From: a virus
Strand: one strand, 5' to 3'
Virus record (IMG/VR): IMGVR_UViG_3300001847_000419
Coordinates: 1 to 32,439 of that record
Length of the DNA: 32,439 bases
Shown: positions 196 to 24,465 of the stretch, piece by piece
How positions within the stretch are numbered: the first letter of the stretch is position 1
Layout of the letters: every line of letters starts with the position of its first letter
The notes under the pieces: model-generated
What the model was told of the DNA's origin: nothing
Database searches by the model: none
The model's input: the letters and a program-made list of their open reading frames with translations, nothing else
Translations under genes and position numbers: made by a program

Positions 196-3100
196 ATGAT
201 TAAGACAGGGTTTGAATCTAGAGTAAAAATACAGCAAATTATTGACAGCCAATTACCAGAATTTGTTTTAGATGAAAGTCCAAAAGCTGTAGAATTTTTT
301 AAACAATATTATATTTCGCAAGAATATCAAGGTGGTCCAATTGATATCTCTGATAATTTAGATCAATATTTAAAACTTGACAATTTAATTCCTGAAGTAA
401 TTAGTGGAACTTTTACACTCTCCGAAAGTATCACATCTACATCAGATACAATTCGTGTTGAAAGTACTAAAGGATTTCCACAAAAATATGGATTATTAAA
501 AATAGATGATGAAATCATTACATATACTGGTATAACTACAAATACTTTTACTGGTTGTATTAGAGGATTTAGTGGAATAACAACTTATCATCAAAATTTA
601 AATTATGAAGAGTTAATATTTTCAACTTCTGACGCCTCATCTCATACATCACAAACTCCTGTATTAAATCTTAGTTCTTTATTTTTAAAAGAATTTTATA
701 AAAAAATAAAATATACGTTTACACCAGACTTACAAAATATTGATTTTGTTTCTGATTTGAATGTATCAAATTTTATAAAAGAAGCACGAACATTTTATAG
801 CACAAAAGGGACAGAAGAAGCATTTAGAATTCTTTTCAATATTATTTTTGGAGAAAATCCAAAAATACTTAATCTTGAGGATTTCCTAATTAAACCTTCT
901 ACAGCAAATTATATAAGAAGACTAGTTGTAGTTTGTGATGTAATATCAGGCAATCCTCTCAATCTTGAGGGACAAACTTTAATAAAAACTACTGATAGCA
1001 ATACAACTGCATCTATTTCAGAAATAGAAGTTATTAGAAGAAAAAATAAAACATATTATAAACTTTTACTTTTTCTCGGATATAGTATACCTTTTGATAC
1101 CATAACGGGTCAATTTTCTATCACAGGAAGTACTAGAAATATACAAAGTGTTAGTGTAGGAAGTTCAATTATAACAGTAGATACCACAATAGGATTTCCT
1201 CAATCTGGAACAATTTACTGTGGTGATAATATTATCACTTATACTGATAAGAGTATTAATCAATTTTTCGGATGTTCTGGCGTCACTTCTAATATTGATG
1301 TAGCATCAACTATCTTTTCAGAAGATACATATTTTTCTTATGAAAATGGTGATACTTCTAAAAAAGTTGTTTTGAGAATTACTGGAGTTTTATCCGATTA
1401 TGTTCCTATTGAGACGGATTTCCCTATTAGTGTAGGAGAAAAAATAGGAATTAAAAGTCTAGGTAAAACTATCAAAAATCCAGATACAGATAAAACATAT
1501 AAAGAAATTTTTGCAAATAGTTGGATTTATAATACCAGTTCAAGATATGAAATAATAGATAATTTTACTCCAGGAGTTACATCACAACTTATTTTAAAAA
1601 GTGAAGTTAATTCTTCAAGCCTTAAAGTTGGTGATTTTATTGATTTGCTTTATAAAAATACTCAGACCGTAATTAAAAGTGGATTAAAAGTAACTTCCAT
1701 TTCCTTAGGTGGAACTGGATTATATCAAATTACATTAGATAATAATGTAACACTTTCTTCTGGTTTTAATTATGATATTAGAAGAAGAATTAAAACCGCA
1801 TCGTCATCAATTGCTGAATATAATTCTTTATTTTCTGATGTTCAAAATGTATATGATGATAATAATGATTCAATGTATGTGGCATCAAATTCATTACCTT
1901 CATATCAAATAACTAAATCTATATTTTCATATAATGCAATTGGTGTTAATGATATTGATCCAGATACTGCTGAATATACTACAATTGTTTTTAGTAATAA
2001 AGTTTCATTTTTTACAGGAGATCAAATTTATTATAAGCCATCAAATGATCCTATTTCAGGATTAAGTGAGGCGATATATTATGTTGAAGTTTTACCAGGA
2101 AATTTAAAAATTAGATTGTATGGATCCAGCTCTGCAATCGGAACAGTAAATTATTTGCGTTTTGGTAGTTTGACAAATGGTACACATAACTTCGTACTTA
2201 ATTCTCAAAAAGAAGGAGTAATATCCGCACAAAAAATTCTTAGAAAATTTCCTTTGACTGTTAACATTGGTGATGGAGAATCTGATGATACACCACCAAG
2301 TTCTGTTGGAATGTTAATTAATGGAGTAGAAATTTTTAATTGTAAGACAACTAATAAAATTTATTACGGCCCATTGACTAAAATTGATGTTCTAAATGGA
2401 GGAAGTGATTATGATGTTATAAATCCTCCAAATTTAACTGTTTCTACAGGTTCAGCACTAATACAACCATGTCTTAGTGGTTCTGTAGAAAAAGTTTATG
2501 TCACTCCTCAAAATTTTGATATCAATGTATCAGTTTCAATTGCTCTTACTGGTGGAAATGGTACAGGAGCATCATTTGAACCAATAATAGAAAAAAGAAG
2601 AAGAGAAATAGAATTTGATGCTAGAATAACAAGTTCTGGTGGTGGTATTGATACTAGTAATGAGACTGTTACATTTTTAACTGAGCATAACTTAGTTGAT
2701 GGTCAAAGAATTACTTATCGTTCTCTCAATAATCCAGAAGTTGGAATCGGAACCTTTTTAGGATCGAATGGAATTACTGGATTGACATTAAAAGATGGTT
2801 CTGTATATTATGCACAATACATAAACAATTATACAATTCGCCTATATCCATCAATTTTAGATTATAATGCTGGAATTAATACTATCGGATTTACTACTAC
2901 TTACAATTCTTCTGGAATTCAAAGATTTGATACAGATAGTAAAAATTATTTGAGCGGAATTAAAGTTATTAATAGTGGACAAAATTATAAAAATAGAAAT
3001 CTTAGAGTTTCTCCATCTGGAATTTCTACTGCAACAAATGTAATTTATTTCCCAAGTCATGGCTTCAATGATGGAGAAAAAATTGTATATTCTTATACAG

Positions 3101-6100
3101 GAATTTCTTTATCTGGATTAACTACATCAAATCAATATTATATTTTAAAAGTAGATGATGATAATTTTAAATTATCTGATGCTGGAATTGCTGGAACTAG
3201 TCTAACAAATTATCAGAGAAGAAATTTTGTAAGTTTAGGTTCATCTTCTGGCACAGGTTATCATATTTTTAGTGATCCAAAAATAACTTTAAAAGTAAGC
3301 TATGGATCAGTTGGTTTAAATACTAGTCAAGTATTAGGAACTATTGATGCTACGCCTGTTGTAAAAGGATCTATATCAAGTGTTTATGTTTATAATAGTG
3401 GAAGTGATTATGGATCAAATATTTTAAATTATCATAAAAAACCAACAGTTTTGGTTCAAAATGGAAAAGATGCTTATTGTAAGCCAATCATTGTAGATGG
3501 AAAGATTACAGATGTAATTGTTCAATATGGAGGAAAAGAATATTATTCTATTCCAAATATTAATGTTGTAGATTACTCTGGAAATGGAAGAGGTGCAATT
3601 CTTCAACCAATTATAGTTAATAATAAATTAACAAATATTATAGTAATTAATCCTGGCGCAGATTATTCTTCCACTGATACAAAAATACAAATAATTTCAT
3701 CTGGAAAAAATGCAGCATTTGATCCCCAGGTAAGATCTCTTTCAGTAAATGATAACTTCTTGTTTGGCGTAATAAATTCAAATAATAGCACTATTACACC
3801 AACTAATGAAATTATAAGATCTTCTTATAATAATTTGCAATATGGAGTTACTGGATATTTTGGAACACTTAAAAGTGAATTTGGTGATACGGGCATTAAA
3901 CATTCACCTATTATAGGTTGGGCTTATGATGGAAATCCAATTTATGGTTCATATGGATATACCAATCCAAAATCTACAAGCGGAAGTGTAAAATTACTCA
4001 GTCCAGGCTATTCTTTAGATCCAAGTAAAGTAAGTAATAGACCAAGTTTGTCTGTTTTTTCTGCAGGATTTTTTGTTGAAGATTATCAATTTACTAATTC
4101 AGGTGATCTTGATCAATATAATGGTAGATTTTGTATTACAAATGAGTTCCCTGAAGGAACTTATGCTTATTTTGCAACTTCTGAAATAAACTCAGAAGGA
4201 AACTATGTAGGAAAATTTCCATATTTTATAGGGACTAAATTTAGATCTAAATTTTTAGATAAAAATAGATCATTAAATCAATCATTTGATTTCAATAATT
4301 CTTCTTTGATTAGAAATACTTTTCCATATAAAATTTCAGATCCAACTGCAAGTAATGATTTTATTATTGAATCAAATGAAGTAATTAATCAATTCTCAGT
4401 TGTAGAATCAGTCACATCTGGTTCAATTGATGCATTGCAAATTATTAAGGCTGGAGATAATTATAAAATTGGCGATACTTTAATATTTGATGAAGATAAC
4501 ACTGGTGGAGGCGGTTTAATTGCTCAAGTATCAGAAATTAAAGGAAAAAATATAAGTAATTTACAAAACTCTTCACTCTCTTATAGTAATGCAATTTTTC
4601 AGTTAAATGATAAAAATCAAATAAAAGTAAAAATTTACCCTAATCACAATTTAAACAATTTAGATTATGTAAGTATTTCTGGTTTATCAAGTTCATTAGG
4701 ATCTTTGAATGGTATTAGTCAAATTGGAGTAACATCGTATAGTTCATACTTATTTAAAGATCTTCCAGCTATATCAAGTGGAGTAGCAACTGATATATAT
4801 GTTTCAAATATTCCTACAAATATTTCTATAGGAAGTTCTATTAAAATAGAATCTGATATTTTAACTATTCTCAATATTTTTAATACGCAAAATGTAATCA
4901 GGGTTATTGGTGGTAGCTCTGTTGGATTGCATACTGCAAATACTCCAATTTATTTTATTCCTGATACATTTACAATTAATAAAAATGTAGATTATTTTGA
5001 TTCTAAAATTAATGATTTAGTTTATTTTAATCCAAAATATTCAGTTGGAATAGGAACAACTTCTGGGACTGATATTAGCGTTTTATATAATGTAGGTGTT
5101 CAAACAAATAATACAATTTTAGTTCCAACTCAATCAATTTATTTACCAAATCATCCATTTAAGACAAATCAATCAGTAATTTTAAGAAAACCAGCTTCTG
5201 GAAATGTTATTTCTGTTAGTAATACATCTACTAGTTCAACATTTAATTTACCATTATCTGGAAATAGTCAAACAGTTTATGTAATTAAAAAGTCTGACAA
5301 TTATATTGGAATAGTTACTCAGATTGGATTGACGACTTCCACAAATGGTTTATTTTTTAGATCTTTTGTAGCTGGTTCAAATCCAGATCAATACTCAATA
5401 GAATCTACATTTAATCAGATAACTGGATCAGTAAATAAAAATGTTACAACTGTTTCAGTATCAACATATCATAGTCTTCGTGAAGGCGATTCTATAGAAT
5501 TATATGTAAAACCAAACTTATCCGTAGGTATTGGAACTTCTACAAGTGTTAAAGTATTACGCGATACTTTAACAGGATTTATTTTAATTAATCCTTTAAA
5601 TTTCAGTTCAAGTGTAGTAAGTACTACAAATCAAACAATAACTATTAATTCCCATGGATTAAAAACGGGAGATAAAATTAAATATTCTGCAAATACTATA
5701 ATTAGTGGTCTTTCTACAGGATTTTATTATGTTTATAAAGTAGATAATAATACTATTCAACTTGGCAAAACTTATATTGATGTTGTTCAAACAGACCCTC
5801 CAAATATTATAAATTTTGCAAGCACTGGTGGTTCATCACAAACTATTTCTTTAGTTAATCCAGCACTAAATGTAATAAAAAATAATGATATTGTTTTTGA
5901 TCTTACAGATACTTCTTTATTGGGATATAATTTTAGAATATTTTATGATCAAGGTTTTTATGATGATTTTGTTTCAACAGGATCTACAAATTCTTTCTCT
6001 GTAATTGGTGTAGGAACTGTTGGATTTTCTACAAATGCTAAATTGACAATAGGATATGATTTTAATTTACCAGCTCCTCTTTTTTATAATTTAGAAAAAT

Positions 6101-9100
6101 CTGGATATATTAGTACAGCAGATACTGAAGTAATAAATTATTCATCAATTAATTATATTGATAGTTCTTACAATAATTCTTATAATATTTTTAATGTTGG
6201 ACAAACTACATTTAATGTATGCTTATCTAATACTCCTGAAAAGAGTTCATATGCATCTACAGAATGTGATACTTTAGAATATACAACTAATTCAGGTTTT
6301 TCATCAGGTGGTGTTTCAAAAGTAAAAATTATATCCTCAGGTTTTAATTTTAAAAAATTACCTTCATTTAGTGCAATAAATTCTGATTATGGAAATGGGG
6401 CATATATTGTACCTAATTCTGATAAAATTGGAAAAATTAATAAAGTTAGAATTTTAAATGAAGGTTTTGAATACTCTTCAGATAAAACCTTAAAACCTGA
6501 AGCTTTTGTTTCTAAATATGCTTCAATTGAAAGTTCAAATACTATTAAATCTATTCAAGTACTTGATGGTGGAAAAAGATATAATCAAGCTCCAGATTTA
6601 ATTATAATTAAATCTGATACTGGTGAAGTTATAAATTCTGGAATATTAACACCCAATCTTTCTCAATCTGGTAGAATTCAATCAGTTTCTATTGATTATC
6701 CTCCCACAGGTTTGCCAGAAAATCCCGTAACTATAAAAGCAATTAATAATAGTAATGGAGTTGGTATTAAGACTGTTCAATATTCTTCATCTGGAATTGT
6801 AACTTGTTTTCTTTTAACTCCAGCATCTGGATTTAGCGTGGAGCCATTTACCCAAGGTGATCAAATTTATGTTGAAGGTATACAAAAATCTTCAAGTGAT
6901 GGTACAGGATTTAATTCACAAGATTATGGATATAATTTCTTTACAATTAATTCATATACTGTATCTTCTCCAGGAACTCTAGCATCTTTAAGTTATAATA
7001 TTTCTGGATTTAGTACAAATCCAGGAACTGTAAAACCAGTCGAAAATTATTATGGGACAATTGTTAATTATAATAATTATCCAAAATTTGAAGTTACTCA
7101 AGATTTCTCATCCTTTACAGTCGATGAGAAATTGCAAGTTAACATTGCAGGACAATATGTGTCCGAAGATTTAATGATTATGAGTTCTGATAAAAATTAT
7201 ATTAAAGTATATGGCACTTATAATTTGCAGAAGGGTCAAATTATAAAAGGATTAATATCTGGAACAATAGCAACAATTAATGAAGTAAAGGAAGCTAAAG
7301 GTGAATATAATATTAGTTATGGAAATATAACTGATATTGGATGGGCTGATAATGTAGGAAAAATTAGTGATGATACTCAAGTATTAGCTGATAATGATTA
7401 TTATCAAAATTTATCTTATTCAGTTAAGAGTAGTAAACAGTGGGATGATATTGTAAGTCCTGTAAATAGTATCCTCCATCCATCAGGATTAAAGAATTTT
7501 GCAGATACTCAAATTACTCAAAATATAGATCAAACATCTGTTTATGTAAATCCAGATCAGGTAGTAGATGTAAAAGTAGACATTACTGAAGGGCAAAGAG
7601 TAGATACAATTAATAATTTTGATTTAGTTTTAGATGTTGATGCTTATAATAACTCTTCTAAATTTTTAAAATTTAAAAATAAAAAATTAACAAGTTATTT
7701 TAGAGTAGTTAGTAATAGAGCTTTACAGATTGATCAAATTAGCTCGCAATTTTCTAGTTCTAATAATGTTACATCCACAACATCAAAAATTGTAGATATT
7801 GTACCAACAAGACAATTTAATAGATATTTGGTTCAAGTTTCAAATAAAAATTATACTAATTTTCAATTTACAGAGTTAATTATTTTAAATAATAACTCTA
7901 ATACATTTACTTTAGAAAAAGGAACAATTAATTCAGGAATATCTTCTGAAACTGGTTATCAAACAAATACTATTGGAAACATTTATGGTTATTTAAATAC
8001 AGATACTAATCAGTGTTATTTAAAATTTGATCCAAAAGATCCATATTCAACTAGTTACAATATTAAGTATTTGAATGATACTTTTGTAAATTCAACAGTT
8101 GGTGTAGGGACAACTAATATTGGTTATGCCAGCCTTACTGGAATTACAACTACTGTGTCTTCAGGAACTACGACTACTTTAGTTGGTTTATCTACTACAT
8201 CATTGGATTCATTACATTCTATGATCCATATAATTGATAACACAACTGGAAATATGGATTATGTTGAAGTATTTGTTGATCATGATGGTATCAATACAAA
8301 TTTAGCTGAATTTTATTTTGACACTAATGATAACCTTAGTTCTAATTTCATAGGAACATTTGCTGCATCCATAAGTAGTGGAGTTATAAAATTACAATAT
8401 ACAAATAATACCTCAAATGGAGTAACAATTAGAACTAAAAATATAGGATTTAGCACAAGTCTAGTTGGATTACAGACATATACATTCAAAGATCCAAGTC
8501 AAATAGATGGGTATGAAAATACTGTTAGATTTAACACTTTTTATTCTGTAGTTTCTGGTGCTTCTACCATAGTATCGGCAAATAAAGATACTTTTTCAGC
8601 TATCAAATCATTAATAAAAATTGGTGTTGGGCAAACAAGTGCATTGCATCAAGTTATGATGATATCTGATGGAACTAATGTAAATACTATGCAATATCCA
8701 TTCCTTTCGATTGGAAGTACTTCAGGTATAGGAACCTTTGGCGGTGGAATAGTTGGATCTCAATTAGTCTTAAATTTCTATCCAGATAGTAATTTCTCTG
8801 CAAGTTCTATAAAAATTATATCATTTAATGAAAATTTCTATACTCAAAATGATTATATTAATACTCCTCCAAATTTAAGCTATTCTAATATAACAGAATC
8901 TGTCGGAGTTTCTCGTTTTTATTCAGTGAATGATCCTGATATTAATGCAAAAGTTTTTGCTCTTAATTATCAAGGAACTCCAATTTTCCAAAAAACTTTT
9001 AATCCTTCTAATAGTTCAGTATTAAATGCTTCTACAGGAGAATTTAATATTCCAAATCACTTCTTTAGTACAGGTGAAGAATTAATTTATACGCCAAATA

Positions 9101-12100
9101 CTAGTTATATTGGAGTTGCAGTAAGTTCAGTAGGAATAGGAAGTACTTTGAACTATGTTGGAGTAGTTACAAATATTTTACCAAGTAAAGTATATGCGAT
9201 TAGAGTTAATAATGATAAATTTAAAATATCTACAAGACAAGATTATGCAAATTCTGGAATAGCTGTAACATTTACTTCTTTAGGTTCTGGAAATGTCCAT
9301 ACATTTGAAATGGCTAAAAAGAATGAAAAAAGTATGATCTTAATCAATAATATTATTCAAGAACCAATTACATATTCCTTATTAAATTATACCGTAAATA
9401 ATGGATCTGCAGTTAGTTCATCATCCACTATATTTGGGTTAAGTGGAATATCATCCATCAATTCTGGAGATCTTCTTAGAATAGATAATGAATTTATGAA
9501 AGTTACTAATGTTGGATTGGGAACTACCTATTCTGGCCCAATTTCATTTGCAGGAACTTTCCCACTTGTTAATGTTGAAAGAGGATCAGTTGGAACTTCA
9601 GCTACATCACATTCAAATTTAGGAATTGCCTCAGTATATAGAGGTTCATATACTATTTCAGGAAGTAACATATACTTCTCAGAAGCTCCTAGAGGTCCTT
9701 TACAATATCAATCATATCCAGATACTGATGGTCTTCCTGATGTAACTGATTATTTTTCTGGAAGAGTATTCTTGAGAAAAAATTATGATGCAAATACAAT
9801 TTATGATAATATTTCAGAAATATTTACTGGAATAGGTCAAACTTATACATTAACTGTTTCAGGAAGTAATGTAGTTGGATTAGGAACTAGTGGATCAAAT
9901 GGTTTTGTATTCTTGAATGGAATATTCCAAAAACCAACTACACAAAATAATCCAAATAATAATTTTTCAATTATAGAAAATACAATATCTGGAATATCAA
10001 GTGTAGTATTTTCTGGAATAACATCATCAAATGGATCTATTGTAATATCTCAAAATGATGTTAATTTAAATCAATTGCCAAGAGGAGGATTGATCGTTTC
10101 TATTGGTTCAACAAGTAGAGGGATAGGATATGCTCCTTTAGTTGGAGCATCTGTAACTGCTATAATTGGGGCTGGTGGAGCTATTACGGCTATTGGAATT
10201 GGTACAACTGGCGATTTGGTAACTGGGAATTGGGGTTCTGGTTATAGATCACCAGTATCAGTGGCGGTTACAGAAAGTGGACATGTTGGAACTGATGCAG
10301 TGATTACTGCAAATGTGGGCGCTGGTGGTACATTATCATTTACTATCGTTAATGGTGGAACTGGATATGTGAAACCAACAATCAATATTCCTTCTCCAAG
10401 TTATACTAATTTGCCAATTACTGGAGTTTCTAGAATATCATCTGGTTCAACAACTGATTGTGGGGTGGGATTACTTCTGGATATTGATGTTGGCGCAAGC
10501 TCAAGTACTGGCATAGGTTCTACTTTATTTGAAGTAGTAGGATTTAAAATTAGAAGACCTGGATATGCTTTCAAAAAAGGTGATGTTATTAAGCCTGTTG
10601 GTTTAGTGACAGACAGAAAATTATCGAGCCCTATTTCAGAATTCCAACTTACAATTTTAGATACTTTTACAGATTCTTTCTCCGCAATACAGTTTGGTCA
10701 AATAGACTATATTGATCCTATACAAATTTATCAAGATGGAATAAGAACTAGATTCCCTTTATATTATAATGGACAACTTCTAAGTTTTGAAAAAGATTTT
10801 TCTGATTCTCAATCACAACTTATTGATTTTAACACTATTTTAATTATTTTTATTAATGGTGTTTTACAAACTCCTGGAGAAGCTTATCAATTTACTGGTG
10901 GTTCATATTTTACGTTTAATATAGCCCCAAGAGTAGATGATAATGTTGCTATTTTCTTCTATAGAGGAAGTTCTAGCGATAGTTCTTATTCTAGCGTAGC
11001 TGAAATATTAAAATCTGGAGATGACGTTCAAGTATTCAAAAATAATGACTATTTGGGTATTACTACAAATCAAGATCCAAGATTAGTAGATTATATAAAT
11101 TCTTCTAGTACTATAGAAACTCAATTATATAATGGTCAAGGAATAGATGGTACTAATTATAAGCCTATTAGTTGGACAAAACAAAAAGTAGATAAAATTA
11201 TTAATGGTGAAATTGTTTCTAAAGCTAGAGATTCTATCGAATCTCAAATTTATCCAACAGCAAAAATTATTAAAAATGTTGATACTAATAGCTCAGAAAT
11301 ATTTGTAGATTCAATATCATTATTTAATTATGAAAATCTTTCTCCTGCACAAATTAATTTTAATGCTTTAATGGTTTCTGGAACATCTGATCCAGTTTCC
11401 GCAGCAGTAACTGCAGTAGTTTCTGCTGCTGGAACAATTCAATCTTTATCCATCAATAGTTCTGGAAGTGGATATAGAGGTTCATCTGTTAATGTAAGCA
11501 TTTCCGCTCCTAGTACAATTGGAGTTGGTATAGGAACTACTGCTAAGGCTACTATTTCTATTGTAAATGGATCACTTTCCACTGTAACAATAACTAACCC
11601 TGGACTTGGTTATACTAGAAGTAATCCACCAAAAGTTTTAGTTCCTCCGCCAAGTTCAATTTATGAAAATATAACCAATATTACAGGAATAGCTGGAACT
11701 TTTGGTGGAATTACTGGAATTGGAACTACGGTCGGTGTAGGAACTGCTTTGGCTATTAATTTTACAATGAATGTAACTGGACTATCTATAGGATATCCGA
11801 TCTATGTCTATAAAACTTCAGTTGGTAAAGGTGTAACTTCAATTTTAACTAATAATTCAAGTATTGTTGGAGTTGGAACTACTTGTTTAGATAATATTTA
11901 CATTGTAAGTGGTATTAATGCGTCCGCAGGGGTAGTAACTTGCAATATAGATTCTAGAACATCTACGGTAGGGATTGCAACTACAGGAAATGTAGGATAC
12001 TTCTCTTGGGGTAGAATTAGTGGGTTTACTAGATCATCTTCACCTGTTGCAATTGCAGTATCAGGATTTTCTGTTGATAGTGGTTTATCCACATTTCCAA

Positions 12101-12153: not shown

Positions 12154-12167
12154 ATTCCCAATCTTCA

Positions 12168-12175
12168 TATAAATA
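12168..12175 (+). promoter_or_regulatory. Putative T4-type late promoter for gp8
   Basis: The octamer TATAAATA is an exact match to the T4 late promoter consensus. It sits in the 40-nt gap between gp7 and gp8, 18 nt before the gp8 ATG. By T4 rules transcription would start near 12181, leaving a very short leader without a strong Shine-Dalgarno sequence. The sequence is AT-rich, so chance matches occur, but placement in the only gap before gp8 supports it. Confidence 0.6.
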
Positions 12176-12193
12176 TAAAAAAAACACAGTAAA

Positions 12194-13750
12194 ATGTCGG
12201 CAATTATAACTGATAAATTTAGAATACTTAATGCATCTAGCTTTATAGATTCTATCAATGATACGTCAAATTCTTACTATGTATTTGTTGGGTTAGCAAA
12301 TCCTGATGCTTCTGGTTTTGGTAGATATTCTCAATGGAACACTAGCACCCCACCACCAACAGATAATATTGATTATTTAAATCATTATAAAAATACTATT
12401 TTATTTGGTAAAAAAATTACTTCCACAAGTGTTAAAAGGGTAATTAAAAAAATTACTTGGACTTCTGGTCAAATATATGAAATGTATAGACCAGATTATA
12501 GTGGAATTAATTCTGCCCCAGTAACAGGAGCAATTCGATTATATGATGCTAATTATTATGTAATTAATTCTGATTATAGAATTTACATCTGTATTGATAA
12601 TAATTCATCATCCACAAATAGAAATGGCAATATTTCTCAAACAGAACCAACATTTACTGATTTAGAACCAGTTCTATTAGATGATGGTTATACTTGGAAA
12701 TATTTGTATACAATGACCCCAAGTGATATAATTAAATTTGATTCTACTGAATATATTTCCATACCAAATGATTGGCTAACTTCTACAGATTCTCAAATTC
12801 AATCAATAAGAGAAAATGGAGATTCTTCTTTAAATAGTAATCAAATTAAAACTGTATATATTGAAAATCCTGGATTAGGATATCCAACAGGTACTAAATC
12901 TTGTAATTTAGTTGGAGATGGTTCTGATGGCGAAGTCACAGTCACTATAGGACAAGATACTAAAATATCAGATGTTGTTGTCACTTCTGGCGGAAAAAAT
13001 TATACTTATGCTTTAGTAGACTTAGGAACAGTAACAAATCCAGGAACATATGCCGAGTTAATTCCTATTATACCTCCATCAAAAGGGCATGGATTTGATA
13101 TTTACCAAGAATTGGGATCTGATAAAGTATTAGTTTATGCTAGATTTGATGATTCAACAAAAGATTTTCCAATTGATACAAAATTTGCTCAAGTTGGGAT
13201 AATTAAAAATCCATATATTTATAGCTCAACAGGTATTAGTACAACAGTATTCACCGATACTCAGTTTTCTGGTGTATACTCAATGATGTTAAAGAATGTT
13301 TCTGGCACAGTTTCTATAGGAGATAAACTACAACAAACTGTGACTGGTGGAATTGCATATGGATATGTAGTTTCTTTTGATACTGAAACTAATGTTTTGA
13401 AATATTATAGAGATAGATCTTTATATTATGGAAATAATGGAATATCTCATCAAGATTATCCAAATATTTCATCTCTATTTTCTTCATCAACTAATACAGT
13501 TTTAAGTTTTGAATCAAGTGCTCAGCAGGTTACAACCAATAATGGTTTTTCTGCTAATATTATGAGTTATTCTGGAATTACAACAACAGTTTCCAATAAA
13601 ATTATCAATTTAGGTGTGACATTTCAAAATGGTCTTGCAGATCCAGAGATAAATAATAAGTCTGGAGAGATAATTTATATCGATAATAGATCAACTGTTT
13701 CTAGAAGTTCTAGACAAAAAGAAGACATTAAAATTATTCTGGAATTTTAA
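12194..13750 (+). CDS. 8: Baseplate wedge protein gp8, 518 residues
   Basis: The N-terminal sequence (SAIITDKFRILNASSFIDSI, then NSYYVFVGLANPDASGFG and FGKKITSTSVKRVIKKITW) is characteristic of gp8, which joins gp7 and gp10 in each of the six baseplate wedges. T4 gp8 is about 334 residues. The extra length here comes from an inserted beta region at residues about 219-360. It starts with GxGY-type repeats (IENPGLGYPTGTKSCNLVG, VTSGGKNYTYALVDLG) like those in gp7 and gp14, and includes a GTVSIGDKLQQTVTGG-type module. Conserved gp8-like features DGYTWKYLYTMTPSDIIKFD (residues about 164-183) precede the insertion. The C-terminus (GEIIYIDNRSTVSRSSRQKE, then DIKIILEF) matches the family ending. No strong ribosome site is visible before ATG 12194; an exact late promoter octamer lies just upstream. 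The next gene starts 3 nt after the stop. Confidence 0.85.
   Translation: MSAIITDKFRILNASSFIDSINDTSNSYYVFVGLANPDASGFGRYSQWNTSTPPPTDNIDYLNHYKNTILFGKKITSTSVKRVIKKITWTSGQIYEMYRPDYSGINSAPVTGAIRLYDANYYVINSDYRIYICIDNNSSSTNRNGNISQTEPTFTDLEPVLLDDGYTWKYLYTMTPSDIIKFDSTEYISIPNDWLTSTDSQIQSIRENGDSSLNSNQIKTVYIENPGLGYPTGTKSCNLVGDGSDGEVTVTIGQDTKISDVVVTSGGKNYTYALVDLGTVTNPGTYAELIPIIPPSKGHGFDIYQELGSDKVLVYARFDDSTKDFPIDTKFAQVGIIKNPYIYSSTGISTTVFTDTQFSGVYSMMLKNVSGTVSIGDKLQQTVTGGIAYGYVVSFDTETNVLKYYRDRSLYYGNNGISHQDYPNISSLFSSSTNTVLSFESSAQQVTTNNGFSANIMSYSGITTTVSNKIINLGVTFQNGLADPEINNKSGEIIYIDNRSTVSRSSRQKEDIKIILEF
12840..13070 (+). repeat. GxGY-type repeats inserted in gp8
   Basis: Two copies of the repeat family seen in gp7: ENPGLGYPTGTKSC (about 12861) and TSGGKNYTYALVDLG (12984). 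They are separated by VTVTIGQDTKISDVVV, which parallels the gp7 linker VDGKITDVIV. They fall inside the part of gp8 that exceeds the T4 length. Confidence 0.65.
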
Positions 13751-13753
13751 CAG

Positions 13754-16700
13754 ATGGCCCAAAAAACAAATCTCAATGTAAGTCCATATTTTGATGACTT
13801 TTCTCAGCAAGATACTGGAGCTAAGGATAAAAATTACTATAAAATTCTTTTTAATCCTAGCAGACCAGTTCAAACAAGAGAATTAAATACTTTACAATCT
13901 ATACTGCAAGATCAGATAGAAACCTTTGGCAGCCATGTATTTAAAGAAGGTTCTGTTGCAATTCCAGGAAACATTGTTTATGATGGTCAATTTTATGCGG
14001 TAAAATTACAACCACAACAATATAATGTAGAATTATCTACATACTTATCGCAATTCATTGGTAAAAAAGTAATTGGACAGTCATCTTTGGTAACGGCTGT
14101 TGTCCAATTTGTCCAACTTCCAAATACAGAAGTAGATTATCCTACAATTTACGTTAAATATTTGCATTCTGATTCAAATTTTGAAATTAGTCAATTTCAA
14201 GATGGTGAAACATTATATTCTGACGAAACTGTTGGTTCTATAACAAGTGGAACTTCATTTGCCACTACAATTTCTCAAAATTCAACCTCAATAGGATCTG
14301 CAGCTTCAATAGGAGATGGTGTTTATTTTGTTAGAGGTTCTTTTATTAGAGTTTTAAATCAAACAATTATTTTAGATTATTATACTAATACTCCATCATA
14401 TAGAGTTGGATTAAAAGTAATTGAAGAGGTAATTACTGCAAAAGATGATTCAACTTTATATGATAATGCAAAAGGTTTTACTAATTTTGCAGCGCCAGGA
14501 GCAGATAGATTTAAAATTTCTCTAATCTTAACAAAAAAACTTTTAGATGATACTAATGATACAGATTTTATTGAATTATTAAGAGTTAAAGATGGAACGA
14601 TTAAAAAATTAGATGTAAAATCTGATTATTCAGTAATAAGAGATTATTTAGCACAAAGAACTTACGATGAATCTGGAGATTATGTAGTTACTCCATTTCA
14701 ATTTTCTCTGAATAATTCTCGTAATGATGCTTTAGGTAATGATGGTATATATTTTGATGGAGAAAAAACTGATCAAGGAAATACTCCTTCAGATGATTTA
14801 ATGTGTATTAAGTTCTCTCCAGGGAAGGCTTATGTGAGAGGCTATGATATTGAAAAAACTGGAGTAGAAATTATAGATGTTGCAAAACCAAGAACAACCG
14901 ATACTGCAAGTAATGTAAATGTCCCATTTGAAATGGGAAATTTAATTAGAATTAATAATATATCAGGGGCTCCAAAACAAAAATATACAGTAGATCTTTA
15001 CAATTACAGAAAAACTTCTACAATATCACCAACAGGAACAAAAATTGGAGATGCAAGAATTTACACATTTAGTTTAACCGATGCTGCATATTCTGGAAGT
15101 TTAACAAATTGGGATTTATACTTATACGATATTCAAACTTATATTAAACTTGAATTAAATCAAGTTGTATCAGCAACAGAATTACCTGCAACGTCTTTTG
15201 TTAAGGGTAAAAATAGTGGAGCATCTGGATATGCTACTGCTGCTGGTTCAGGTTCAAGTATTATTTACCTCAGTCAAACGTCTGGTTCATTTATTGTAAA
15301 TGAACCAATTACTATTAATGGAATAGATACATATCCTAGAACTGTTAAGAGTGTAGAGGCTTATTCCTCACAAGATATTAAATCCATATACCAATCAACA
15401 GCAGTTTCTGGTTTTTCAACTGCATTTATTGCAGATACTCAGCTAGATAAAATTGTACCTAGTGGATTTACTCCAACAGATTCAATTACTATTGAAAATG
15501 GTACAGTATACTCTTCTGGAAAGATTTTTTCTGGAATAACAAGTAATGCTATTATAAGGTATCAAAGAATTGGATTTAATACTGAAACTTATAACAGAGT
15601 TTCTTCAATATCCTCAGATAAATCTACTATAACTGTAACTGGAGTGACAACAGTCCCTGGGGTTTGTGATGGGGCAGTTCCAGTTGCACAAACTAGAGTA
15701 TCATTCTCTGTCGGTGCTCCTAGAATTAGAAATCAAGACAAGGGGTTTTTATATAAAGAATTATACAATAGTAATGTTGCATCAACTAATTTAAGCAATT
15801 CTAATTTAGCATTTACTGCTCAATCATTAGGAACTTTAACTCCTTCTGGTGGTGTGCTAAGTTTATCTCCGTCAAATTTTGATTTGGGTATAAGCACTTC
15901 TATTGCACAATTTGTTCCATTTAATCAAGAAAGATATTCTATTCATTATAGCGATGGTACGATCGAATCTTTAAGTTCTGATAAGGTAGTAATAACAAAT
16001 AATCAATTAACATTTAATAATATTCAAAATAAAACTATTTCAGTAATAAATGCCGCATTTATTAAAAATGGTATTCAAGTTAAAACTAAAAAATATAATA
16101 GAAGTAAAACTGTAAATATTAATTATTCAAAAAATATTCATTCTGGAACTGGAGCCAATTCTTCCATAAATGATGGATTGACATATAATTCTTATTATGG
16201 TTTAAGAGTTCAAGATCAAGATATTTGTTTAAAATTTCCTGATGTTGCAAAAATTATTGCTGTATATGAATCCTTAGATACCTCCAATCCAGTTTTGGAT
16301 ACAATTACATTTAATGCATCTGCAAATGTAGACACTAATGCAATTATTGGAGAAAACATTATTGGTTCTCAAAGTAATGCTGTTGCTAGAGTTGTTTCAA
16401 AACCTTCATCAAATACTTTAGGAATTGTTTATTTAAATAGTAGTAATTTTTATGCAAATGAATCTGTTTATTTTGAAGAATCTAGTATTAATACAACTAT
16501 AAGTGCATTTACCCCAGGAAAATATAAAAATATTACCAATAAATTTATTTTAGATAAAGGGCAAAAAGAACAATATTATGATTATTCAAAATTAGTACGA
16601 AAGAATGGAGAGCCAGAGCCAACTAATAGAATTTTAGCAATTTTTGATTATTATTCTATACCATCTAACGATACAGGTGAAGTATTTACAGTAAATAGTT

Positions 16701-19700
16701 ATGAATCTGAAAGATATGAATCTGACATACCTCTTATTGGTATGAATAATGTTCGTGCATCAGACACTTTAGATTTTAGACCAAGAGTAACAGAGTTTAC
16801 TGGAACAACATCTTCACCTTTTGATTTTTCATCTAGATCATTTGCTCCAGACCCTAAAATAATTTTAACTCCGAATGAAAGTTCATTAATATCTTATGAT
16901 TTTTACTTGGGGAGAATTGATAGGTTATATCTTAATAAATTGGGCGATTTTATAGTTTCGCAAGGAACACCATCAATAAATCCAACCCCACCAACTAGTC
17001 CTTCTGAAGTCTTAGAACTTGCTACAATAACTCTTCCACCATATCTCTATAATCCAAAAGATGCATCAGTATCTTTAGTTGATAATAGACGTTACACAAT
17101 GAGAGATATTGGATTAATTGAAAATAGAGTTACCAATTTAGAAAGAGTAACTTCACTATCTCTTTTAGAGCTGAATACTCAAACTCTTCAAATTCAAGAT
17201 GCTCAAGGATTTAATAGATTTAAAACAGGATTTTTTGTAGATGATTTTAAAAATTATGATTTGATGAATAATTTATTATCGACAGTTGAAATTGATCCTG
17301 TAAATGATGAAATGATTCCTCCAATAGGAAGAAATAGTATCAATTTACTTCCAGTGTCATCTCAAGTATTCACAAATGAGCAATTAGATTTAAGTTCTAA
17401 TTTTGCTCTTTATGATAATAATGTTCAAAAAACTGGAGATGCAATTACATTAAAATATCAATCTGTAGGATGGATCGAGCAACCATTAGCTACAATGGTT
17501 GAAAATGTAAATCCATTTAATGTTGTAAGTTACAATGGTGTTGTAAGATTAAATCCAGAAAGTGATAGTTGGGTTAGAACAATTACACTTAATGATGTTG
17601 TAAAAACTACTTTTACAACTTTAACTGTCACTCCTAAGTCTGCACAAAGATGGATTAATAGGAATAATGCTTTACCAGTTTTTGCTAGAATTAGAAATGG
17701 TAGAAGAGGAACATGGCAATGGTTATATAATAAAAAACCAAGAAAGAGAGCAACTGGAGCAATCATAGTAGATGAGGGTGAATATAATGTAATTTCAGAA
17801 GGTGAAGATATCTTTATGAGATCCAGAAATACTGGATTTTATGCTAATAATTTGAGACCTTTAACTAGATTTTATCAATTCTTAGATGGAAATAGTGGAG
17901 TTGATTTTATACCAAAATTAATAGAAATTTCTAATAATTCAAACTTACAAAATAGTGGATCTAATGGTACATTTGCAGTTGGAGAAACTGTAATTGGCTC
18001 TTTTAATGATACAAATTTAATTCAATTTAGAGTAGCAAATTCAAATCATAAAAAAGGACCCTATAATAGCCCAACAGTAACTTACGACTCTAATCCTTAT
18101 AGTAGAGACGAAAATATTCCATCTTCTTACAGTTCTTCTTCAAGCATACTTAATATAGATATTGATTCTTTATGTCAACAGACACAAGGTCTTTATTCTG
18201 GATATTTGGTTACTGGAATGAAACTAGTTGGTCAAACCAGTGGAGCAATTGCTTATGTTAAAAATTTGAGACTTATTTCTGATAGCTATGGAGATCTTTT
18301 AGGTGCATTTTTCTTAAGGGATCCAAATACTAATCCACCTCCAGCAACTAGAATAAACACTGGTTCTAAAGTTTATAAATTAACATCAAGTAGTAATAAT
18401 GAATCTCCTCTTCCAGGAAGTCAATTAATATCATCTGGAGAAACAATTTATGTATCTACAGGAAGATGGGAAGATATACAAAGAAATACTACTATAGAAA
18501 ATTTTAGATTTGATTATGACAATCCATTGAGATTTGATTATAATGATCCATTGGCTCAATCTTTTACTGTCGGTGGAAACATTGGTGATAATAGAGATTC
18601 TGCAAATGAAGATGCAAATGGAGCTTATTTAACTGCTGTAGATCTTTTCTTCGCAAATAAAGATGGAAGAAATGCTCCTTTGACAGTAGAAATTAGAACA
18701 GTTGATCTGGGAACACCCACTCAAAATATACTTGCTCGCACTACTTTACGTCCAAGTGAAATAACTACATCCAGTACTGCATCTGTAGCAACACATGTGA
18801 CATTTGACTATCCAATTTATCTTTCTCCAGGAAAAGAATATGCTATAGTTTTACTGTCACCTAACTCAGATCAATATGAAGTTTGGGTAGCTAAGATGGG
18901 AGAAAACACAGTAAATACTGCAAGTCTTCCAGATTCTCAAAGTGTACGTTATACAAAACAATTTGCAATTGGAAGTTTATTTAAATCTCAAAATGGATCT
19001 ATTTGGACTGCAAATCAATATGAAGATATGAAATTTAAGCTTTATAAAGCTAATTTTACATCAACAAGTGGAAGTGTTTTATTCCAAAATCCAACTTTAA
19101 ATCAGAGTAATGGTTATGTTCCAACTCTGATGAACAATCCAATTAAAGTTTTTCCAAGAAAATTAAATATCGGAATTACTACAGTAGCATCTAGTAGTCC
19201 TTTAGTTGGAATATTGACATCTGGAAGAAAAGTTTCTGCGAATGGTGAAACTTATAAGTATGGATATATTGTAGGAACTGGTAGTTCAGTATCTACTGTA
19301 AATATTACAGGTGTAGGTACTAATTATTCCACAACCGCTTCTGTTCAAACATATGCAATTACTGGAAGTGGATCTGGTTTAACTTTATCTATATCGGCTT
19401 CAGGTGGAGCAATTAATTCTGCTACTCCAATTAACCGTGGAAATGGATATGCTGTTGGAGATGTGGTTGGTATTGTCACATCATCAGTGACTTCGACATC
19501 AGGAAAAGATGCTAGAATTACAGTGTCAGCAATTACTGGTATTGATACTTTATACTTATCTAATGTTCAGGGGCAAAATCTCACAACTCAAATTCCTTTA
19601 GTATATTACGATAACTCTGGAAATGCAGTTTCTCTTGCATCTACTCTAATCCAAACATCAACCCCTGTTGGAGGAATTTATGATGGTGATGTTTTACAGG

Positions 19701-21019: not shown

Positions 21020-21216
21020 TTAGAGTAAAAGGGCATCCAAATTTATATAGAGATGAAGCTTCTGGTGCTATAATAAACTGTGATAATCAATCTTACAATC
21101 AGTATGTAAATAGTTTGCACAATAGAGAAGTTCAAAAAAATGAAATAGATCAAATGAAAGTTGACATATCAGAGATTAAATCTTTATTAAAGGAGTTAAT
21201 AAATGCAAATAAGTGA
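21016..21216 (+). CDS. Small conserved phage protein, 66 residues
   Basis: A short protein beginning MIRVKGHPNLYRDEASGAII. It ends in a charged helix (NEIDQMKVDISEIKSLLKEL) with heptad-like spacing, so a small N-terminal fold plus a C-terminal coiled coil is likely. From memory, proteins starting VKGHPNLYRD are common in the structural modules of marine T4-like phages; I do not know a function. Its ATG overlaps the previous stop as ATGA, which implies translational coupling to the giant DUF4815 protein. The 3' end contains the ribosome site of the next gene. It may be a minor virion component or an assembly factor for the preceding protein. Confidence 0.75.
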   Translation: MIRVKGHPNLYRDEASGAIINCDNQSYNQYVNSLHNREVQKNEIDQMKVDISEIKSLLKELINANK

Positions 21217-21388
21217 AATAGAACTTGAAACAATTGATAAAATGTTTGAGTTTGAAAGACAATCAAGATTAATTGATGAATTAAGTATCGAAGAGCTTAA
21301 AAAATTCTCAAAATTATATTGTAAATTATATTTAAAGCAACAAGAAGTTATTAGTTCCTTAGGATCTTTTGGAGTTGATAATAGATAA
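21203..21388 (+). CDS. Small hypothetical protein, 61 residues
   Basis: The start ATG lies inside the previous gene (14-nt overlap) and is preceded by a good AGGAG ribosome site at 21191-21195 with 7-nt spacing, which decides the start. The product is acidic and almost entirely helical by composition (ISEIELETIDKMFEFERQSR, then LIDELSIEELKKFSKLYCKL). It has one cysteine, no signal peptide and no membrane segment. I do not recognise a family. A late-promoter-like octamer covers its stop codon, so the following gene may be transcribed separately. Being in a conserved virion operon suggests an assembly or accessory role, but this is inference. Confidence 0.6.
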   Translation: MQISEIELETIDKMFEFERQSRLIDELSIEELKKFSKLYCKLYLKQQEVISSLGSFGVDNR

Positions 21389-21391
21389 ATA
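21384..21391 (+). promoter_or_regulatory. Putative late promoter before the 114-residue gene
   Basis: GATAAATA matches seven of eight positions of the T4 late consensus TATAAATA. It overlaps the stop codon of the 61-residue gene and ends 23 nt before the next ATG at 21415. By T4 spacing transcription would start near 21397. It would serve the block running from the 114-residue protein through gp13, gp14 and gp15. Confidence 0.5.
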
Positions 21392-21414
21392 AGAAGTAGA
21401 GCTTTTAAAAATAC

Positions 21415-21759
21415 ATGGCATCAGTATATGTAAATAATTTAGTTATTAATGCTGGTTCCGATTTTAATCAATCTTTCAGTTTAGAAGGATCTGACAATAA
21501 TTCTGCTTTGAATTTAACAAATTATAGTGTGCAGTCCGAAATGAGAAAATGGGCAGGAAGTTCTACATCGGTAGCTTTTGCTTCTACTATCATTTCGCCT
21601 CAAACATTAGGAAAAATTGTAATAAGTTTAGGATCTACTATAACGCAGGATTTAAAACCTGGACGTTATGTATATGATGTTCTTATTACAGATGATCAAG
21701 GTGTTAAAAGCAGAGTTGTAGAGGGTATGGTTCTCGTAAGGGAAGGAGTTACCAGATAA
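21415..21759 (+). CDS. Small beta-sandwich-like virion protein, 114 residues
   Basis: The protein (ASVYVNNLVINAGSDFNQSF, then SVQSEMRKWAGSSTSVAF and LKPGRYVYDVLITDDQGVKS, ending VVEGMVLVREGVTR) has the alternating pattern of a compact beta-sandwich. The motif PGRYVYDVLITDDQG followed by a Val-rich strand is common in small phage tail-associated Ig-like or BppU-like proteins. No catalytic residues are evident. It sits in the region where T4 has gp11 and gp12, ahead of the neck genes. Its stop overlaps the next ATG by one base (TAATG). The ribosome site is weak: only a purine-rich AAGAAG about 20 nt upstream. A structural or fibre-attachment role is likely; the exact role is unknown. Confidence 0.7.
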   Translation: MASVYVNNLVINAGSDFNQSFSLEGSDNNSALNLTNYSVQSEMRKWAGSSTSVAFASTIISPQTLGKIVISLGSTITQDLKPGRYVYDVLITDDQGVKSRVVEGMVLVREGVTR

Positions 21760-22232
21760 TGCCAAATATTAAAGTTAATTTAGATAATCATGTTACAAAA
21801 GTTAGAGTTGGACAACAAAATGGTGTAAAAGTTGTTTCCAGTGTTTCTGGATCAGCTGGAGGAACTGCTGTTAATGTTGTTGGTGGAATTGCTTCAGTAT
21901 CTCAATTAAATGTAACAGGATTTTCTGATTTTGTTGGCACATCTACCTTTCACAATGATATTCATATTGACGGAAATTTATATGCTAATAATGCTGTAGT
22001 ATTTGATACATTTACAGCTAGTAATGGAAATATTACTGGCATTCTTACAGTCGGCCAATCCTTATATTATCCAATCGGAGAACCATTTGGTATTGCCTAT
22101 TTTGATCAAAATGATAAGTTAGTTTCAACGGGCACAACAGCGTTAGCTATATCTGAAACTAATTACATTGTTTCAACTAATTCTTCAGGTATTCCAACCT
22201 GGGCAAGCGTTATAGATGGAGGAGTTTATTAA
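21759..22232 (+). CDS. Fibre-like structural protein in the wac slot, 157 residues
   Basis: The start follows an AAGGAG ribosome site at 21743-21748 and overlaps the previous stop (TAATG). The N-terminus NIKVNLDNHVTKVRVGQQNG is followed by Gly/Ser/Val-rich beta sequence. The middle contains FHNDIHIDGNLYANNAVVF and GNITGILTVGQS, resembling the repeating strand-turn pattern of phage fibre shafts and chaperone-associated fibre tips. The C-terminus (STNSSGIPTWASVIDGGVY) also looks like a fibre end, with a PTW turn. It lies immediately before gp13, where T4 carries wac (fibritin, the neck whisker). No sequence similarity to fibritin is claimed, and no long coiled coil is present. A short fibre of neck or baseplate is the best guess. 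Confidence 0.68.
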   Translation: MPNIKVNLDNHVTKVRVGQQNGVKVVSSVSGSAGGTAVNVVGGIASVSQLNVTGFSDFVGTSTFHNDIHIDGNLYANNAVVFDTFTASNGNITGILTVGQSLYYPIGEPFGIAYFDQNDKLVSTGTTALAISETNYIVSTNSSGIPTWASVIDGGVY

Positions 22233-23074
22233 TGGCAAAACCAAATAGCAGACAAGAATTAATAGATTATTGTTTAAGAAAATTGGGGGCTCCAGTTTTA
22301 GAAATAAATTTGGCTGATGAGCAAATAGACGATGCCGTAGATGATGCCTTGCAATACTTCCAAGAAAGACACTTTGATGGTGTTGAAAGGATGTATTTAA
22401 AATATAAAGTCACTCAAGCTGATATAGATCGTGGAACAGGTAAAGCTCCAAATGGTGTAGGTATTGTAACTACTACTGGAAACGCAAATATTTCTGGAAT
22501 TGGTAGCGTTAGTTATAATTTTTATGAAACATCTAATTTTATTCAAGTGCCTGATTCAGTAATTGGTATTGAGAAAGTTTTTAAATTTGACACTAGTTCA
22601 ATTTCTGGTGGAATGTGGAGTATTAAATATCAATTATTTTTAAACGATTTATACTATTTTAATTCAGTTGAACTTCTACAATATTCTATGGTTAAAACAT
22701 ACCTAGAAGATATTGACTTTTTACTTTCAACAGATAAACAAATTAGATTTAATAAAAGACAAAATAGATTATATCTTGATATAGATTGGAATTCAAAATC
22801 TACAGATACATTTTTTATTATAGATTGTTATAGAATTTTAGATCCTAATGATTTTACTAAAGTTTATAATGACAGTTTTCTTAAAAAATATCTTACATCT
22901 TTAATGAAGAGACAGTGGGGTCAAAATTTAATTAAATTTAGAGGAGTAAAGCTTCCTGGTGGAATAGAACTAAATGGAAGAGAAATTTATGAAGATGCTG
23001 AAAGGGAACTTGAGGCATTAAAACAAAGAATGTCGATGGATTACGAATTACCACCTTACGATTTTATTGGATAA
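22232..23074 (+). CDS. 13: Neck protein gp13, 280 residues
   Basis: The sequence NSRQELIDYCLRKLGAPVLE, then INLADEQIDDAVDDALQYFQ, is the classic N-terminus of gp13, which with gp14 forms the neck closing the filled head and joining it to the tail. The length is close to T4 gp13 (309 residues). A conserved C-terminal part (FTKVYNDSFLKKYLTSLMKR, then QWGQNLIKFRGVKLPGGIEL) ends in a charged helix with LEALKQRMSMDYELPPYDFIG. The start is decided by a strong GGAGGAG ribosome site at 22218-22224, 7 nt from the ATG. The ATG overlaps the previous stop (TAATG), and the gp14 ATG overlaps this gene's stop the same way. No beta-repeat insertion is present, unlike its neighbour gp14. Confidence 0.92.
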   Translation: MAKPNSRQELIDYCLRKLGAPVLEINLADEQIDDAVDDALQYFQERHFDGVERMYLKYKVTQADIDRGTGKAPNGVGIVTTTGNANISGIGSVSYNFYETSNFIQVPDSVIGIEKVFKFDTSSISGGMWSIKYQLFLNDLYYFNSVELLQYSMVKTYLEDIDFLLSTDKQIRFNKRQNRLYLDIDWNSKSTDTFFIIDCYRILDPNDFTKVYNDSFLKKYLTSLMKRQWGQNLIKFRGVKLPGGIELNGREIYEDAERELEALKQRMSMDYELPPYDFIG

Positions 23075-24465
23075 TGGCACTCAATCCCTTTTTTTTACAA
23101 GGATCACCAAATGAACAAAGGCTCATTCAAGAGTTAATTAATGAGCAACTTAAAATGTATGGTGTTGAAGTAACATACATTCCAAGAAAATTTGTAAGAA
23201 AAGAAACTATTTTAAAAGAAATATCATCTTCTAAATTTGATGACAATTATGCTTTAGAGGCATACATAAACAATTATGATGGATATACAGGACAGGGAGA
23301 TATTTTAACAAAATTTGGAGTAAGTTTAAAAGATGAAATAAGTTTAATTATTTCAAGAGAAAGATTTGAAGATTTTATTTCTCCTTTTATGAACTCTGAT
23401 GATCCAGAAATAGAATTAGCAAGTAGACCTAGAGAAGGAGATTTGGTTTATTTTCCTCTTGGTCAGAGATTATTTGAAGTTAAATTTGTTGAGCATGAAA
23501 ATCCATTTTATCAACTTGGAAAATTATATGTCTATGAAATAAAATGTGAACTATTTGAATATGAAGATGAAGTTATTGATACCAGTATTCATGAAATTGA
23601 TACTCAAGTACAAGATGAAGGTTATATTACAACATTATCACTAATTGGAAGTGGTTCAACTGCAACAGCAATTGCAAACATTGGTTCTGGTTATATTCGT
23701 AAAATATATTTAAATAATGACGGGTATGATTATACAACTTCACCGACAGTTTCTATATCCACTGCACCATCTGGAGGAATAAATGCTTCTGCAGTTGCAA
23801 TTACAACATCTCTTGGTGGTGTTCGATCAATTAAAGAAATACTTTTAGTTAATGCAGGATCTGGTTATACTGCACCACCTTTAATTAGTATATCTGGAGG
23901 TGGAGGAGTAGGAGCATCCGCAACTTGTTCTATCGAAGCAATTCAAAAAGGTATTATTAGTTTTACAATGACTAATGTTGGAAGTGGTTATAAAAACAAA
24001 CCTCAAATAACTATTACAGGTTCTGTAGGAACAGGCGAAACTGCTGTCGGTATTGCTTCTTTGGGAACAAATAATCAAATTTCTGCTCTCAGAATTTCAA
24101 ATCCAGGTGTAGGGTATACTATTACTCCCATTGTAACAATAGCTCAACCTTCTTCCCTTTCTGGATTCGGAACCTATATATTTAATGAAATTATTACAGG
24201 ATCTATTTCTGGAACTCAGGCAAGAGTAAAATCTTGGGATTATGATACTAAAATACTTAAAGTATCTTTTATGAATATAGGATCAAATAATTCTGGATTT
24301 TATCCTGGAGAACTTATTGTTGGAACTGCTTCTTCTGCAACTTATGCTGTATCAACAGTTAGTCAATTTGATTTATATGATAAATATGGTGAAAATGATG
24401 TCATACAAAATCAGTCCGATCAAATTATAGATTTTTCACAATCAAATCCATTTGGTAACTTTTAA
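23074..24465 (+). CDS. 14: Neck protein gp14 with beta-repeat insertion, 463 residues
   Basis: Residues about 1-185 show gp14 features: NPFFLQGSPNEQRLIQELIN, VTYIPRKFVRKETILKEISS, YTGQGDILTKFGVSLKDEIS, and PREGDLVYFPLGQRLFEVKF. The product caps the portal-neck assembly with gp13 after DNA packaging. T4 gp14 is about 256 residues; this one is much longer because of an insertion at residues about 190-360 made of at least four GxGY repeats (IGSGYIRKIY, NAGSGYTAPPLISIS, NVGSGYKNKPQITI, NPGVGYTITPIVTI). A second module, TGSISGTQARVKSWDYDTKI, lies at about 375-395. The C-terminus (LYDKYGENDVIQNQSDQIID) returns to the family pattern. The ATG overlaps the gp13 stop, and the stop overlaps the gp15 ATG. 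The ribosome site is weak, consistent with coupling. Confidence 0.9.
   Translation: MALNPFFLQGSPNEQRLIQELINEQLKMYGVEVTYIPRKFVRKETILKEISSSKFDDNYALEAYINNYDGYTGQGDILTKFGVSLKDEISLIISRERFEDFISPFMNSDDPEIELASRPREGDLVYFPLGQRLFEVKFVEHENPFYQLGKLYVYEIKCELFEYEDEVIDTSIHEIDTQVQDEGYITTLSLIGSGSTATAIANIGSGYIRKIYLNNDGYDYTTSPTVSISTAPSGGINASAVAITTSLGGVRSIKEILLVNAGSGYTAPPLISISGGGGVGASATCSIEAIQKGIISFTMTNVGSGYKNKPQITITGSVGTGETAVGIASLGTNNQISALRISNPGVGYTITPIVTIAQPSSLSGFGTYIFNEIITGSISGTQARVKSWDYDTKILKVSFMNIGSNNSGFYPGELIVGTASSATYAVSTVSQFDLYDKYGENDVIQNQSDQIIDFSQSNPFGNF
23630..24150 (+). repeat. Tandem GxGY beta repeats inserted in gp14
   Basis: This is the cleanest tandem run of the repeat in the window, with period about 40-45 residues: IGSGYIRKIYLNNDGYDYTT (about 23680), NAGSGYTAPPLISISGGG (23854), NVGSGYKNKPQITITGSVG (23977) and NPGVGYTITPIVTIAQPSS (24103). 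Each unit has the order strand, GxGY, Pro/Lys turn, strand, Gly-rich loop, strand. Confidence 0.75.

Follow-up and report, generated by a model that had tools for sequence, protein, structure and literature searches.

The 32,439-base stretch of DNA analysed here (the window; virus record IMGVR_UViG_3300001847_000419) carries the virion genes gp7 to gp18 of a cyanophage of the T4 type and raises a simple question: why does a repeat with a GxGY core recur in four different virion proteins, gp7, gp8, the DUF4815/VrlC protein and gp14? A sequence-only reading of the window had proposed that the copies are one family, spread by repeated transfer within the genome and perhaps forming a ligand-binding surface decoration. 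Our comparisons indicate strong homology between the units of the four proteins, as members of a single family. With moderate confidence we favour the explanation that this family spread between the genes in ancient times and provides structural arms on the neck and baseplate.

The unit has a length of ~42 residues, and its pooled gp14 consensus is roughly I..I.l.N.G.GYt..P.vtI..p.G.G..A.a.a. Five residues are near-invariant: G10, G12 and Y13 of the GxGY core, P17 four residues on, and G28. The lysine of the Pro/Lys turn described earlier is not conserved. Four copies and a leading half unit are present in gp14, two copies in gp8, two in the DUF4815/VrlC protein and about 15 in gp7, and the counts per protein given by the sequence-only reading therefore stand.

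A profile made from the window's four gp14 copies only, as that reading had envisaged, was too weak across genes (in gp8 it gave 6.0 bits, the same as shuffled sequence), so homologues were needed. The working gp14-only profile was built from the gp14 units of 80 homologues. Searched against single window sequences, it gave two scores at the gp7 C-terminus, 22.0 and 16.6 bits (local shuffles, 10.5 or less), and a borderline 10.6 bits in gp8. Whole-length gp7 scanned with HMMER gave nothing; matches were obtained only with 90-residue windows. The profile was also run against family alignments, with the best of 40 column-shuffled alignments per protein as the null, and the predicted sites ranked first in every one of the other three proteins. 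The scores were 26.6 for gp8 (shuffle best 17.2), 30.8, 29.9 and 24.6 for the N-terminal half of gp7 (16.8), 47.3 and 30.1 for the gp7 C-end (19.1), and 27.9 and 23.5 for the DUF4815 protein (19.2). A repeat run with fresh shuffles agreed with this result. When whole arrays were compared, 27 of the 28 pairs exceeded the shuffle maximum of 20.4, with P values down to 1e-14 (gp14-gp8, 3e-7; gp14-DUF4815, 5e-7; gp14-gp7 C-end, 1.5e-14; gp7-gp8, 1e-12), and tandem units aligned in register across roughly 50-130 columns. BLASTP among the window proteins aligned two units in register between gp7 and gp8 and three between gp7 and gp14, both with E=0.002. Profile and array links across the four virion proteins exceed matched shuffled controls, which bears out the proposal of one repeat family.

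The gp7 units lie in four regions (residues 727-800, 1060-1183, 2040-2155, and 3300-3421 with 3748-3838), with isolated ones at 919 and 1411. Twelve of them exceed the shuffle maximum with the gp14-only profile or with a combined profile of gp14 and gp7 C-end units; those at 3300, 3341 and 2079 were recovered by windowed scans or array comparison. The last gp14 unit ends near 24213, beyond the 24150 read earlier, and two core motifs had been exchanged: gp14 carries NPGVGY and gp7 carries NPGLGY. In window coordinates the units are as follows.

2374..2592, + strand: gp7 units n1 and n2 (residues 727-762, 764-799); n2 above the shuffle maximum with the gp14-only profile, n1 with the combined profile; array against gp14, P=1.7e-10.
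2950..2994, + strand: gp7 unit n3, core only (residues 919-933); profile score 25.0, null maximum 16.3.
3373..3744, + strand: gp7 units n4, n5 and n6 (residues 1060-1100, 1104-1144, 1145-1183); profile; array against gp8, P=1e-12, and against gp14, P=3e-11; BLASTP to gp8, E=0.002.
4426..4533, + strand: gp7 unit m1, weak (residues 1411-1446); score 20.8, null maximum 15.3.
6313..6660, + strand: gp7 units m2, m3 and m4 (residues 2040-2073, 2079-2116, 2117-2155); profile scores 25.8 for m2 and 33.0 for m4; m3 by array alignment to gp8, P=6.6e-8.
10093..10458, + strand: gp7 units c1, c2 and c3 (residues 3300-3337, 3338-3379, 3380-3421); profile, windowed scan and array comparison; BLASTP to gp14, E=0.002.
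11437..11709, + strand: gp7 units c4 and c5 (residues 3748-3793, 3794-3838); 22.0 and 16.6 bits, local-shuffle maximum 10.5; array against gp14, P=1.5e-14.
12845..13081, + strand: gp8 units a and b, inserted in the T4 gp8 fold (residues 218-257, 258-296); profile, array comparison and predicted strands; no T4 gp8 counterpart in the alignment.
19289..19543, + strand: DUF4815/VrlC protein units d1 and d2 (residues 1846-1886, 1887-1930); 27.9 and 23.5, null maximum 19.2; array against gp8, P=2e-11.
23623..23694, + strand: gp14 leading half unit (residues 184-207); matches unit columns 26-40; model strands 186-191 and 198-204 ahead of u1.
23695..24213, + strand: gp14 units u1-u4, in tandem (residues 208-252, 253-293, 294-335, 336-380); profile and predicted strands; four copies in 79 of 83 homologues.

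AlphaFold2 predicted three strands per unit in the gp14 repeat region, with a predicted local distance difference test score (pLDDT) of about 77-94 per ten-residue block, mostly 83-94 over u1-u4. In the gp8 repeat region it predicted two groups of three strands (mean pLDDT of the model 79.7, with the block mostly at 79-91). On these models, units of both proteins would have the same pattern of three strands. No Pfam or NCBIfam model covers the repeat, and no solved chain in the PDB matched it by sequence, the only hits to the unit profile being chance GPPGxGxTA P-loop matches. The gp14 model found nothing in the PDB at E<=0.001; its best match was T4 gp14 itself, at 0.033.

The units had been said to lie in the extra length relative to T4, and alignment to the T4 proteins confirmed this for gp14 and gp8. 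Residues 1-180 of the window gp14 align with the T4 gp14 core (hhalign 1.8e-26), the repeats occupy a stretch absent from T4, and the gp14 unit profile had no match in the T4 genome. The gp8 units occupy a region without T4 counterpart, within a protein of T4 gp8-like predicted fold (PDB 1n7z, E=2.3e-9). Alignment of gp7 with T4 gp7 was limited to residues 19-287 and was weak. In T4, residue 177 is the last of the gp14 beta-barrel core, and gp15 is bound in the virion by residues 178-256 (PMC12270204); the gp14 insert is therefore placed, by this alignment, at what would be the neck-tail joint.

How the copies came to be shared was approached with a tree of 136 units and 40 columns. Copies grouped by position, with 20 label changes against a minimum of 16, and each unit position is orthologous across phages. 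No DNA repeats were found between GxGY copies of different genes; only n1, n4 and n5 of gp7 share one. Recent transfer, concerted evolution and gene conversion were rejected on the basis of the grouping by position and the lack of cross-gene DNA repeats. These two observations, together with the fixed number of units, therefore indicate that the gene-to-gene transfers predate the sampled diversity; the spread between genes is ancient, not ongoing. Of the repeated intragenomic transfer proposed earlier, one part holds, as copies must have moved between genes; they did so before the phages diverged, and recent copying is not seen.

The best partner of the gp14 array is the gp7 C-terminal pair c4-c5 (87.1), and that of the gp8 pair is the gp7 array 1052-1186 (70.8, against 44.5 with gp14); both scores are above any match among gp7's own arrays. 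They suggest that copies of different genes interleave, although such scores depend also on length and alignment depth. The unit tree, with 40 columns, too few for the purpose, gave approximately unbiased test values of p=0.72 for gp7 as one clade and 0.66 for gp14. The gp8, gp14 and C-terminal gp7 copies had been thought especially close; the gp8 pair is in fact nearest to gp7 1052-1186 and not to gp14. Nor is NPGLGY a mark of kinship: it occurs in 2 of 132 gp8 homologues, the commonest letter before G in gp8 being Q, and we attribute the resemblance to chance.

The family is present in five complete Kyanoviridae genomes. In S-SRM01 and P-SSM2 it also extends to gp5, the hub-lysozyme, and to a tail-fibre/baseplate gene. 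Single gp8 sequences scored 19.2 bits in S-SRM01 and 18.9 in pelagiphage HTVC008M, with a shuffle maximum of 13.1. A scan of bacterial and archaeal genomes with the gp14 array, which reaches close relatives only, found none, and plasmids gave none. Predicted structures in BFVD that resemble the gp14 model include those of structural proteins from cyanophages, of P22 gp10-like proteins from uncultured phages and of one Sylvanvirus protein (for the last two kinds A0A6J5L2T0, A0A6J5SB35 and A0A3G5AH46); the viral matches, P22 gp10-like and uncharacterised proteins of uncultured phages among them, have E around 4e-8.

It could be argued that the copies, though homologous, did not spread by transfer within the genome and that each gene received the module independently through horizontal transfer, with other aquatic phages as donors. 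We consider this unlikely. The unit tree cannot tell the two routes apart, and the P22 gp10-like and uncharacterised uncultured-phage proteins among the structural matches would suit such an origin. However, the gp14 array matched by tblastn 231 named-phage records, all listed as Synechococcus, cyanophage, Prochlorococcus, marine or unspecified bacteriophage, and several cross-gene array pairs are as close as pairs within gp7.

As to function, we propose that copies of a three-stranded beta repeat of ~42 residues entered several virion genes in the Kyanoviridae, the T4-type cyanophages and pelagiphages, before the sampled relatives diverged; the repeat would then have expanded in tandem and since been held in place and number. 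Tandem units may pack end to end into stiff, beta-rich arms, inserted where conserved T4-type proteins have their joints. The gp14 arm would stand after the beta-barrel core and before the C-terminal region with which T4 gp14 grips gp15, and the gp8 arm would interrupt the T4-like fold. Such arms would enlarge the neck and baseplate and offer docking or packing surfaces to neighbouring subunits or fibres. They would act in phages that are without wac, gp10, gp11 and gp12, the proteins of T4's whiskers and outer baseplate, and the arrays may thus provide arms and docking surfaces for which T4 uses other proteins. Absence of wac, g10, g11 and g12 from cyanomyoviruses has been reported (PMC2984593). 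Fibritin_C, of which T4 has one, was not detected in the five Kyanoviridae genomes searched, and the window gp13 (22232-23071) is shorter over, and poorly aligned with, the fibritin-binding region of T4 gp13.

Conservation is lower in the repeats than in the protein cores, yet the repeats are far from hypervariable: mean pairwise identity is 0.40-0.63 for the repeats, 0.76 for the gp14 core and 0.68 for the gp8 core. This moderate conservation, the fixed number of units and the presence of the repeat in the gp5 hub-lysozyme all favour a structural role rather than that of a fast-evolving host-binding tip, and for the GxGY module a standard building block of the virion is the likelier description. 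The same observations count against the idea that the module decorates the surface, binds a host glycan or an environmental ligand and was transferred repeatedly from one virion gene to another in the same genome, as do the orthology of units by position and the lack of recent transfer. In addition, searches of Pfam, NCBIfam and the PDB found no known carbohydrate-binding family or fold that matches the repeat. The idea is doubtful for these reasons, although the repeat is present in many virion proteins, including tail-fibre/baseplate genes, and some gp7 arrays score best with other genes (c4-c5 with gp14, n4-n6 with gp8). A YHYH domain (PF14240, E=3e-25) also lies at gp7 residues 1235-1332 (3898-4191), ~50 residues past the n4-n6 array, and thus near gp7 copies. 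The repeat may bind a host or environmental ligand, but this putative function is slightly disfavoured and not our leading reading.

Several points weigh against structural arms as we propose them. An arm can serve structure and ligand binding alike. A review mentions one cyanomyovirus with visible whiskers (PMC2984593). The N-terminal core of the gp14 model is mostly below pLDDT 50 and uninformative, and the five gp8 models range in mean pLDDT from 54 to 79.7. PDB searches found no structure of a Kyanoviridae myophage virion, and arm geometry and partners are guesses for that reason. A wider proposal, that a beta-repeat fold without solved counterpart has spread through neck, baseplate, hub and fibre proteins of the whole phage family, replacing the T4 whiskers, collar and outer baseplate with common arms for fibre docking, seems to us improbable at present.

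Convergence on glycine-rich beta turns without homology is very hard to credit: the motif is short and resembles low-complexity sequence, and the four gp14 copies of the window alone fail to link the genes, but composition-matched shuffled controls are far exceeded, the tandem alignments are in register with P values as low as those given above, and the gp14 and gp8 models agree in strand pattern.

The genes recognised in the window are those of gp7 (3985 residues), gp8, the DUF4815/VrlC protein (2421 residues), gp13, gp14, gp15, gp17 and gp18, in the same order as in Synechococcus phage S-SRM01 (family Kyanoviridae), the nearest isolate by gp14 with 69.6% identity. The core of gp14 (463 residues) passes the Pfam model PF11649, T4_neck-protein, with 110.5 bits against a curated cut-off of 25 (E=1e-31), and gp8 passes PF09215 with 40.8 bits against 25. 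In PHROG, gp14 corresponds to PHROG 460 (head closure Hc2), which also extends over part of the repeat insert, gp8 to PHROG 438, and gp7 to PHROG 2885, 701 and 4406.

Other segments are shared between these proteins or accompany the repeats.

13292..13408, + strand: gp8 counterpart of module B (residues 367-405); 29.5, null maximum 21.7.
24214..24369, + strand: module B, after the gp14 repeats (residues 381-432); shared with gp8 367-405.
24370..24462, + strand: gp14 C-terminal tail (residues 433-463), resembling the T4 gp14 C-terminus; DKY..ND.IE.EAD, a low-probability second hhalign match only, P=0.14.

Module B has the pattern SGT.A.V.S.D..T..Lk...F.pGE.I.G..S, and a weak match to it is also seen in DUF4815 862-922 (E=0.0026). 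A third module, ..L.I.dEII.YTg...n...C.RGF, is common to gp7 59-125 (370-570) and DUF4815 1997-2070 (BLASTP, E=8e-6). A further repeat, H[GFN][FL]..G...I.Y, occurs in gp7 in at least four copies (at residues 831, 955, 1820 and 2955), so that gp7 seems to combine several types of repeat in mosaic fashion. In some relatives, such as L232, the gp7 C-terminal region carries directly after c1-c3 a ~320-residue insert of the repeat TSTDAITWELRTSS...ANNVYVAGG; as these added residues are a different repeat, long gp7 variants as GxGY expansions were rejected for L232. In HTVC008M, gp7 (L087 33435-36485) bears the annotation 'head closure Hc2', which is a name for gp14. The sole match to the gp14 unit profile in that genome falls within this gene, so the shared repeat may explain the label, and the GxGY family probably accounts for some misannotations.

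Oceans and lakes hold T4-like cyanophages in great abundance, and in neck and baseplate these phages are strongly unlike T4. One named repeat family recurring through the extra mass is a concrete target for structure work, and replacement of the whiskers and outer baseplate becomes testable.

Compared with known systems, the window gp14 shares the T4 core and differs in having four units and module B between core and tail, an insert lacking in the 256-residue T4 protein. The gp8 core agrees with T4 gp8 by sequence and predicted structure, whereas the protein is 184 residues longer and has GxGY units (218-296) and module B in segments that T4 lacks. The window gp7 is the same orthologue as the giant gp7 of other Kyanoviridae, YHYH domain included; for the GxGY family inside it no description was found among Pfam or NCBIfam models. 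Ig-like domains are scattered over phage virion proteins, and the evolutionary style is the same, one small beta module in many structural proteins; an Ig-like domain is, however, a sandwich of ~90 residues, in contrast to three strands per ~42 residues here, and we found no significant Ig-like match in Pfam and, for the gp14 model, none in the PDB at E<=0.001. A study of domain shuffling among phage proteins reports mosaicism for receptor-binding, baseplate and neck-passage proteins (PMC10684548), whereas the sharing described here is old and took place inside one lineage's own virion set, not by recent exchange.

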